Source of the DNA: Natronoarchaeum philippinense
Lineage (GTDB): Archaea; Halobacteriota; Halobacteria; Halobacteriales; Natronoarchaeaceae
Length of the DNA stretch: 64,000 nt
Direction: 5' to 3'
NCBI RefSeq assembly: GCF_900215575.1
Contig: NZ_OBEJ01000002.1
Coordinates: 248,001-312,000, forward strand
In this document: in pieces, positions 37,613 to 40,204 of the stretch
How positions within the stretch are numbered: position 1 is the stretch's first letter
Layout: every line of letters begins with the position of its first letter
Made by a program: the position numbers and the translations under genes
The notes under the pieces: generated by a model
Seen by the model: the letters and a program-made list of their open reading frames with translations, nothing else
Databases searched by the model: none
What the model was told of the DNA's origin: nothing

Positions 37613-38998
37613 CTAGTGATCGTGGCCATCCATCACCATCGGCTGTCCGGTGGCGTAGTCGGCTGGATTCGCCTCGAAGGTCTCCTTGCAGGTCTGTGAG
37701 CAGAAGTAGTACGTCTCGCCATCGTGTGTCGCTGCGGGCTCGCTCTCTCCGGTTCGCATCCCACAGACGGGGTCGCGGTACTGACCGGGTGCGCCGAGGC
37801 CACGACGATATACGTACAGGAGAAATCCCGAGAGCGCTACGGCGAGGAGGTTGAGATAGAACGTGTAGTTGAACTTGAAGTACGTCTGTTCGGTCGCTGT
37901 CTCCCCGCTGGCCAGATTCGGGACGATACGAAGGGCGTCAAACAGCAACTCCATGAGGAAGCCGGTGAACGCCATCGTCACGAAGAACACACCGAGGATG
38001 TACAGCATAATCTTCCAGCCGTAGTACTTCCTGTAGACGTTCAACACCGGAATCGTGATGAGATCGGCGTAGACGAACGCGATAACGCCGGCGAAGCTGA
38101 TTCCGCCGCCCCAGAGCGCAACGGCAAACGGGACATTGCCCATACTGCCGACAAAGCTGATGACGGCGATGAAGACACCCATAATCGCGTTTTCGGCGGT
38201 TACGAGCACGCCATCACCTTGGACGAACAGGGCGTTCCAGACCCACTGGGGGACAAAGACGATGACGAACCCGGAGATGAGAAAGCCGGCGACAACGTCC
38301 TTCCAGATCATCGACCACTCCTTCCTGTACTGGTTCCCAATTTTGTACCAGCCGCCCCACGACAGCAGCTCATCGCGCCATCCACCACGACTTGCTGTCT
38401 CTTGCCGGTAGGTCTCCATACAGCCCTCCGAGCAGAACTGCAACGTCTCCCCGCCGTCGGTCGTGAGCGTGTATTCGGCTTTGCCTTCCATCCCGCACGT
38501 GGGATCCTCGGTGACGCCTGCCTCGCGGTCGCGCTCGTTGAGCGTCTCCCGCACCTCGTCAAACAGGTTCTCGGGGAGCGTGAGGTGGACGATAACGGCC
38601 ATGACAGCGATGAGGACGAGGCCACCGAGCAGTTCCGCGAGAAGGAACTCCCAACCCAGCAGTAACAGGATCATCAACCCGAGTTCGACGATGAGATTCG
38701 TCGACGCGAACATGAATGCCAGAAAGTTCACCGCGTGGGCACCCTTCTTGAACAGCCCCTTTCCGATGGCGACGGCCCCGAAGCTGCAGCCACTGCTCGC
38801 CGCCCCGAACGCGGTCGCCTTTGTGAGACCGCTCAGGTCACCATCGCCCAGCACCTGCGCCATCCGCTCCTTAGAGACGTACACTTGAACGAGACTTGTG
38901 ATCGTGAGCCCCATGATGATCGCCCACGCCGCCGTCCAGAGGAACCCGACACCGATGCGGAGGGCTTCCAAGACCTCATTGAGCATCGTCGTCTCCAT
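37613..38998 (-). CDS. Permease with two YHS/TRASH-type metal domains
   Basis: Membrane protein of 461 residues. Two permease halves (about 11-145 and 225-395) show the DUF318/ArsP-like motif GCSFGA at residues 70-75 and the related block SMGNVPFAVALWGGG. Between them lies a cysteine domain (about 163-200) with Cys168 (DPTCGM), Cys189 and Cys193 (FCSEGC). A second lies at the C-terminus, with Cys412 (DPVCGM), Cys433 and Cys437 (FCSQTC). The end is His/Asp-rich (MDGHDH). Such YHS/TRASH domains bind soft or transition metals, suggesting metal efflux with internal sensing. Start at the ATG at 38996-38998. Confidence 0.85.
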   Translation of the reverse strand: METTMLNEVLEALRIGVGFLWTAAWAIIMGLTITSLVQVYVSKERMAQVLGDGDLSGLTKATAFGAASSGCSFGAVAIGKGLFKKGAHAVNFLAFMFASTNLIVELGLMILLLLGWEFLLAELLGGLVLIAVMAVIVHLTLPENLFDEVRETLNERDREAGVTEDPTCGMEGKAEYTLTTDGGETLQFCSEGCMETYRQETASRGGWRDELLSWGGWYKIGNQYRKEWSMIWKDVVAGFLISGFVIVFVPQWVWNALFVQGDGVLVTAENAIMGVFIAVISFVGSMGNVPFAVALWGGGISFAGVIAFVYADLITIPVLNVYRKYYGWKIMLYILGVFFVTMAFTGFLMELLFDALRIVPNLASGETATEQTYFKFNYTFYLNLLAVALSGFLLYVYRRGLGAPGQYRDPVCGMRTGESEPAATHDGETYYFCSQTCKETFEANPADYATGQPMVMDGHDH

Positions 38999-39084
38999 AT
39001 GTGTATTATCGCCGGAATCAGCTATTGCCGTTGTCCTTAGGAGACCCTGGTTCGAGGGGCAGATTCGCTGTGGATTCACAATAT

Positions 39085-39098
39085 GAATAGTTCTATTC
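39085..39098. promoter_or_regulatory. Dyad between permease and SHOCT genes
   Basis: GAATAG-TT-CTATTC is a perfect 6+2+6 inverted repeat in the 179-base divergent region. It is AT-rich and central, so it could be an ArsR-type or other metal-regulator operator controlling both directions. The regulator itself is not encoded nearby. Confidence 0.5.
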
Positions 39099-39177
39099 CA
39101 ACGGGTTCGAAGCCACAACTCCATTGAATCGTGACCCCGTAGTTGGAACTAGAGGCGGACTCACGGAGTGAACACAG

Positions 39178-39558
39178 ATGCCTGAAAATACGGACGACAC
39201 ACGGCTGGTCACGATTCTCCTCGTCATCATCGGTGCGGTCGTCGTCTTCCCGATGGTCTTCACGGGCTTCGGGACGATGGGATCCGGGCCGATGATGGGC
39301 GGGATGTGGGATAGTGGAATGTGGGGCCACGGAACGATGCCGGGGTGGATGTTCGTCGTCGGCATCGTGATGCAGTTCCTGTTCCTCGCTGCGCTCGTCG
39401 GGGGTGGGTATCTCCTGTACAAAGCGGTCACGAGCCGCGAGCGCGACTCGGACTCGGCGCTCGAAGAACTCCGACTCGCGTACGCTCGCGGCGAACTGAC
39501 CGACGACGAATACGAACAGCGCCGAGAGGCACTCGAACGCGACACCGAGTCGCGCTGA
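39178..39558 (+). CDS. Met-rich SHOCT-domain membrane protein
   Basis: Product of 126 residues. Two hydrophobic helices (about 12-30 and 58-80) flank an outside loop very rich in Met, Gly, Trp and His: GTMGSGPMMGGMWDSGMWGH. Such Met clusters bind Cu(I) or Ag(I). The C-terminal 35 residues (ALEELRLAYARGELTDDEYEQRR) form a SHOCT domain, a short helical module often at protein ends. Divergent from the YHS permease and followed 13 bases later by another membrane-protein gene. A role in copper or heavy-metal handling is inferred. Confidence 0.82.
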   Translation: MPENTDDTRLVTILLVIIGAVVVFPMVFTGFGTMGSGPMMGGMWDSGMWGHGTMPGWMFVVGIVMQFLFLAALVGGGYLLYKAVTSRERDSDSALEELRLAYARGELTDDEYEQRREALERDTESR

Positions 39559-39571
39559 GATCGACCCGAGC

Positions 39572-40204
39572 ATGACAGGGCGATCAGACCACCGCTACAC
39601 GACGGCGCAACCACCGCTCCCAACTTGGCTCGACCGATATACGACGTTGGGGCTGTACGGGCTCCTCGTCGGAACGGGGCTCTGCTTGGCCGCCTTTGTC
39701 ACAAATCCGGTCCCCGACCCCTCGTTTCCGTGGGCGACGCTGCCAGCACCGCTCCGACTCCCCTTCGAGCAGCCGCGGATCGAACACTGGCCAACGACGT
39801 ACACCCTCGGCATCTGGCTGTGGATTCTCGGGTTCCCGGCGTTGTTCCTCGATGGCTACAGACGGTTCGGAACTCGGACGACGGGTGGATCCACGATGTG
39901 GCTCGCAGGGCTTCCCACGGTGGCGATGCTCGGCTGGACGACCTACTGTCGGTTCTTCTGGCCGAAGCTCCACCCGCCGACTTGGAACGCCCCGTCGTAC
40001 ACAGTCGTCTGCTGGCTGTATTGCTCTTCGTACGACGTGCTCTGGAGCAACACCGCATATGCAATCGCGCTGTTCGGCATCGTCGCGACGCTCCTCGCCC
40101 TGCGCCGAAAGAGCGGAGATGGGTATGCCCTCCTCGGATTCGGGCTGTTAGCACTCCCTCTCGGTTTGCCAGCAGTGTACGCGGGCTATCACCGGATGCG
40201 GTGA
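39572..40204 (+). CDS. Polytopic membrane protein beside the SHOCT gene
   Basis: Membrane protein of 210 residues with five or six helices (about 26-46, 75-95, 108-122, 135-155, 160-178, 184-204). Notable features are a Trp/Pro/Phe-rich outer segment, a Cys cluster TVVCWLYCSSYD near residues 143-154, and another Cys in TTYCRFFWPK. The gene starts 13 bases after the SHOCT stop, so the two are co-transcribed. I do not recognise the family. The cysteine pair in the membrane suits metal transfer, but this is speculative. Confidence 0.72.
   Translation: MTGRSDHRYTTAQPPLPTWLDRYTTLGLYGLLVGTGLCLAAFVTNPVPDPSFPWATLPAPLRLPFEQPRIEHWPTTYTLGIWLWILGFPALFLDGYRRFGTRTTGGSTMWLAGLPTVAMLGWTTYCRFFWPKLHPPTWNAPSYTVVCWLYCSSYDVLWSNTAYAIALFGIVATLLALRRKSGDGYALLGFGLLALPLGLPAVYAGYHRMR

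Follow-up and report, generated by a model that had tools for sequence, protein, structure and literature searches.

A divergent three-gene cluster in the 64-kb stretch of DNA analysed here (the window) encodes an ArsP_1-type permease, a Met-rich SHOCT membrane protein and an orphan membrane protein, P3, and we consider it probable, at roughly 70%, that the three form an auxiliary Cu(I)/Ag(I) efflux and surface-handling unit carried along with the copper-resistance islands of haloarchaea. The efflux reading is based on family membership, conserved gene order, copper-island context, conserved residues and a shared promoter element, and it is from these that we infer the substrate, the direction of transport, the topology, the roles of the YHS, Met and Cys sites and the identity of the regulator. 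Haloarchaeal copper resistance is usually described in terms of CopA, CopZ and an Lrp-type regulator. The module, which is widespread and frequently located on plasmids, extends this list by a class of transporter whose relatives, to our knowledge, have come up in only a handful of studies, all on bacteria, and by a haloarchaeal protein family that has no name and shares a conserved set of Cys and His residues. As an ArsP_1-type metal permease to which haloarchaea have added YHS domains and this unnamed partner family, it is a new form of a known kind of system. No direct report of the three-gene module was found in the open literature, and the database records consulted label its genes 'permease', 'SHOCT domain-containing protein' and 'hypothetical protein'.

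The permease (461 aa, COG0701) lies at 37613..38998 on the minus strand and scores 193.2 bits against PF03773 (cut-off 32.3), a profile matched by all 19 of the aligned permease relatives. The enclosing open reading frame spans 37613-39124(-), and 38998 is its most likely start because the alignments of orthologues, which are 77-92% identical, begin there; a start at 39124 was rejected for the same reason and because the added stretch would overlap both of the promoter elements described below. The protein has seven cysteines (71, 168, 189, 193, 412, 433 and 437), so that the gene position and the two cysteine triads of the original prediction, Cys168/189/193 and Cys412/433/437, all hold. The seventh, Cys71, is a membrane residue within the motif SSGCSFGA and is invariant in alignment from haloarchaea to E. 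coli YraQ. YraQ and the methylarsenite permease ArsP belong to the same family, PF03773, but YraQ is only 23% identical to the permease, for which no arsenic context was seen, and where YraQ has the motif C-T-C-C the permease has C-S-F-G: Cys71 aligns with a YraQ cysteine and the second YraQ cysteine is replaced by Phe73. Another ArsP_1-type protein, SO_0444 of Shewanella oneidensis, is implicated in Cu/Zn tolerance, as it is required for growth in Cu or Zn and was complemented (PMC3219624), and its Nitratiruptor homologue is induced by Cu and Cd (PMC10092412). The present permease differs from SO_0444 in its YHS domains and its divergent SHOCT-P3 partner operon, and it scores 67.5 bits against the SO_0444 Cu/Zn efflux equivalog NF033936, far below the cut-off of 300; against the SaoE efflux equivalog NF040736 it reaches 54.4 bits, below the cut-off of 325.

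Two YHS/TRASH-type domains had been predicted within the permease. The C-terminal domain (37646..37774, minus strand; C412, C433 and C437) is well supported, with 51.2 bits against PF04945, whereas the internal copy (38420..38506, minus strand; D165, C168, C189 and C193), located in the loop that joins the transporter halves, scores 22.8 bits and falls below the cut-off of 30.3, although it keeps the pattern DPxCGM...FCSxxC and its cysteines are present in 18 of the 19 aligned haloarchaeal permeases. The YHS insertions are missing from all three of the bacterial homologues aligned. When the C-terminal YHS part was compared with bacterial plasmids, what matched, at 50-54% identity, were YHS domains belonging to heavy-metal P-type ATPases, and in the structural model this region resembles the C-terminal region of toluene/methane monooxygenase hydroxylase (Z about 4-6). 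Activation of a YHS adenylyl cyclase has been reported to be Cu-specific (PMC4626032). Three distant YHS-permeases (L107, L108 and L109) retain the internal YHS cysteines and have lost the C-terminal ones, and a Methylobacterium homologue (L111:6992-8161) carries a His-rich C-terminal tail in place of the haloarchaeal YHS domain.

The AF2 model of the permease is of moderate confidence (pLDDT 73, pTM 0.68) and predicts a fold of the ion-transporter superfamily, which includes ArsB. Its core, residues 1-367, matched ArsB/DASS structures in VIA, among them NaCT (Z 14.5), a bacterial dicarboxylate/sodium symporter (Z 13.9) and ArsB (10tp; Z 13.5, 4.5 Å across 299 residues), with unrelated entries well below. 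Taken across 10tp, VcINDY and NaCT, the predicted core fold is alike at Z 13-14.5 over about 277-299 residues, but sequence identity is just 8-11% and a common fold does not reveal the substrate. Foldseek returned no match to the model with E < 0.001, a search by sequence found no solved structure for the permease, and the family profile matched only short YHS/treble-clef-like stretches. If the two halves of the transporter are inverted repeats, the extra helix at 378-399 would bring both YHS domains to the same side of the membrane.

Facing the permease, at 39178..39558 on the plus strand, is the gene for a 126-aa protein whose SHOCT domain scores 29.6 bits against PF09851 (cut-off 27). Hydropathy marks two helical segments, 10-28 and 58-76, separated by a Met/Trp/His loop, FGTMGSGPMMGGMWDSGMWGHGTMPGWM, and 6 of the 10 methionines of the protein sit between them, in agreement with the earlier description of a membrane protein with a dense Met/His loop opposite the permease. 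The sequence is consistent with a helical hairpin whose Met loop would be extracellular provided that the SHOCT end faces the cytoplasm. Two helices, a Met/Trp loop and a C-terminal SHOCT domain are features of other Met-rich SHOCT-domain membrane proteins as well, but the present protein differs from these in that its gene is paired with that of the orphan P3 and is transcribed away from a YHS permease. The same copper islands also contain another Met-rich SHOCT protein (c6). In Haloferax alexandrinus, the genes induced by silver include copA, lrp and copZ, together with those for a SHOCT membrane protein and a COG0701 permease (PMC10694973), the last two of which are set beside the present genes by description only.

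P3 (210 aa; 39572..40204, plus strand) begins 13 bases past the SHOCT stop codon, and the polytopic protein with membrane cysteines that had been expected there is indeed found, with C126, C147, C151 and H72 all invariant in alignment. Profile searches with P3 gave no Pfam, NCBIfam or PADLOC match. Its AF2 model has a pLDDT of 88 and a pTM of 0.82, and no fold could be assigned to it, because Foldseek against the PDB gave no match at E < 0.001 and the best VIA Z was 5.4. In the model, C126 lies near the end of helix 106-129, C147 and C151 open the next helix, and H72 immediately precedes helix 75-99; by the order of the helices, the three cysteines and the histidine are predicted to share one face of the membrane, and the positively charged loops suggest that this face is the outer one. 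Among GTDB genomes, 60 of the 61 P3 loci stand under haloarchaeal names. The exception is a gene on contig CAJXPB010000001.1 (L155), titled 'uncultured proteobacterium'; an identity of 60% suggests that this is a haloarchaeal bin with the wrong label.

The original prediction had proposed, as a check, that the three genes be sought together across haloarchaeal genomes, and they proved to be a conserved unit. Among 112 close permease orthologues from 242 genomes of the class, 36 have SHOCT and P3 upstream in divergent orientation, exactly as in the window, and these loci span 16 genera and 6 families, as counted by hand from the locus tables; this conservation of order far exceeds chance. Elsewhere a divergent SHOCT gene stands alone (14/112) or SHOCT lies directly upstream on the same strand (10/112), and 39 of the 112 orthologues have neither SHOCT nor P3 nearby, indicating that the partners are not obligatory. 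The module is patchily distributed and often plasmid-borne, with integrases nearby and multiple copies per genome. A second copy of the cluster is present in the genome studied here (C1:339789-342345; identities 88/81/82%), and some 3 kb away lies a CopA with 90% identity to the type found in the islands. The region around this second copy (G000:C1:331000-350999; L068) is a fuller copper island, with CopA, a CopZ-like protein, a second SHOCT protein, a DUF302-type protein and a Met-rich protein. The three genes of the cluster are poorer in G+C (60-63%) than the window as a whole (66%), and at third codon positions their G+C is about 0.8, compared with 0.9 in two genes downstream; this is consistent with acquisition from another source.

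No further copper gene adjoins the cluster within the 64-kb window, a point against the copper reading. When genes were called and clustered in 20 neighbourhoods, the recurrent neighbours were a heavy-metal P1B ATPase, a CopZ-like protein of 65-69 aa, the second Met-rich SHOCT protein, DUF302 proteins, AsnC-type regulators with a TRASH domain, DoxX and winged-helix proteins; the domains confirmed by Pfam were TRASH_HVO_1752_C, DUF326, DUF4396, DUF302, SHOCT and DoxX. The same picture emerges from named plasmid records: the annotated copper islands of Halobacterium hubeiense (pSTJ002), Haloarcula marismortui (pNG600) and Halorussus salilacus contain P-type ATPases, heavy-metal-associated proteins, an azurin-like protein and an AsnC regulator, and the azurin-like protein of pNG600 is accompanied by a DUF411 protein. 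Viewed from P3, SHOCT lies within about 5 kb at 47 of the 61 GTDB loci, a permease at 40 and CopA at 34; at 3 of the 61 every copper gene tested for is missing from the surrounding 5 kb, and DUF326 and AsnC-TRASH adjoin P3 in some loci. In bacteria, a permease of Sulfitobacter indolifex that is 35% identical adjoins CopA, CueR, DUF305, DUF411 and a multicopper oxidase, and the other two of the three bacterial homologues inspected, from plasmids of Methylobacterium and Streptomyces, have no gene nearby that is clearly linked to copper. The gene types of the haloarchaeal copA-lrp-copZ system are likewise found in the islands that carry the module, but that system works through a P1B ATPase, and the module described here is a permease unit in its own right. 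Two minor observations concern the same islands: DUF326, a Cys-rich, copper-storage-type protein, lies near P3 or SHOCT in several haloarchaea (L091:5078-5521, L092, L094, L095, L084 and L078), and a small, secreted-looking, Met/His-rich protein of 98 aa with no Pfam match recurs near DUF302 and SHOCT (L085:9073-9366 and L068).

The original prediction left the exported metal as copper, silver or arsenic. Soft-metal export and the choice of copper or silver agree with the co-localised genes, and the substrate is likely to be copper and probably also silver, the latter because of its chemical likeness to copper; copper is preferred over arsenic because the neighbours are CopA, CopZ, TRASH-type AsnC, DUF326, DUF302 and azurin-like proteins, with CueR beside one bacterial homologue. 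Arsenic is not supported as a substrate, as ars genes are absent from the annotated islands examined (three haloarchaeal, one Sulfitobacter), all of which list copper genes. A permease for arsenicals or thiol-linked solutes, exporting trivalent (organo)arsenicals as ArsP does with the metal genes merely co-resident, would account for the Pfam family name, the resemblance of the fold to ArsB and the invariant Cys71; that island inventory and the YHS domains and Met-rich partner, which favour Cu(I)/Ag(I), nevertheless make it highly improbable. It is also quite improbable that the permease exports Zn/Cd or divalent metals broadly, even though SO_0444 protects against Zn too and the Nitratiruptor homologue responds to Cd, since the neighbours are of the copper type and a loop rich in Met points to the soft metals Cu(I)/Ag(I).

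It might instead be supposed that copper is being delivered rather than removed, with the module loading extracytoplasmic cuproproteins (halocyanin/azurin-like proteins, oxidases) and P3 and SHOCT acting as metallochaperones. The conserved Cys/His residues of P3 could be read in this way, as could the azurin-like protein of pNG600 and the SCO-family protein, CcdA and multicopper oxidase of the Sulfitobacter island. However, cuproproteins are not constant neighbours, and a patchy, often plasmid-borne and multicopy distribution, with integrases and linkage to CopA/CopZ, fits resistance better than housekeeping, such that we regard delivery as unlikely. In the efflux reading, the permease, with the invariant Cys71 in its core, would export Cu(I)/Ag(I) from the cytoplasm, and the two YHS domains would bind the same ion as capture or gating modules that feed the pathway. 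The Met-rich loop of the SHOCT protein and the Cys3-His cluster of P3, both probably on the outer face, would then accept or sequester the exported metal. It is tempting to go further and picture a relay from the YHS permease to two dedicated outer-face acceptors, the Met-loop SHOCT protein and the new Cys3-His family, under one regulator and a bidirectional element, but in this specific form the proposal is tentative, and we would sooner expect some part of it to be wrong.

The divergent intergenic region is 179 bp long and contains two blocks that are conserved in orthologous intergenic regions, one directed toward each gene: AAGGACAACGGCAATAGCTGATT toward the permease (39016..39038, minus strand) and AAGCCACAACTCCATTGAATCGT toward the SHOCT gene (39110..39132, plus strand). 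They have the core AAYNGCAWTRRANNRT in common, with an element consensus of AAGGnnAAYNGCAWTRRANNRT. The two copies in the window are each one base off the exact core, which occurs twice in the 3.16-Mb genome, both times in the second cluster copy and once per direction. Between the elements lies the perfect 6+2+6 dyad GAATAG-TT-CTATTC (39085..39098), which is present as originally described; a role in control is not borne out, as none of the orthologous loci retrieved contains the dyad, nor does the second copy in this genome, and the window holds 52 perfect 6-2-6 palindromes, about 3 times the 16 estimated on the assumption of uniform bases. We therefore rejected it as an operator, being neither conserved nor rare, and judge it incidental.

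The motif used for genome searches was derived from those intergenic rows in which the locus orientation was correct (without L039, L041, L042, L045 and L048). In one family of 26 genomes it gave 28 matches against 3 with a reversed control, an enrichment that is partly circular because the motif derives from part of the same loci. Across 242 genomes, 58 of the 150 matches listed lie at set distances before permease, SHOCT or P3; among those listed, 28 exact matches place the end of the core 18-21 nt ahead of the permease start and 29 place it 43-65 nt ahead of the SHOCT start, and at divergent loci the spacing between the two elements is near-constant, at about 95-100 bp. The presence of the shared element before both transcription units suggests that they are probably switched together by one trans-acting regulator encoded elsewhere, for which an AsnC-TRASH protein is a candidate, and the element allows the rest of the regulon to be listed by sequence. 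The core also ends 45 nt ahead of a stand-alone P3 gene, a site that was not used in defining the motif, and with a matrix built solely from permease and SHOCT sites, further copies were located ahead of an ABC-transporter operon in several islands.
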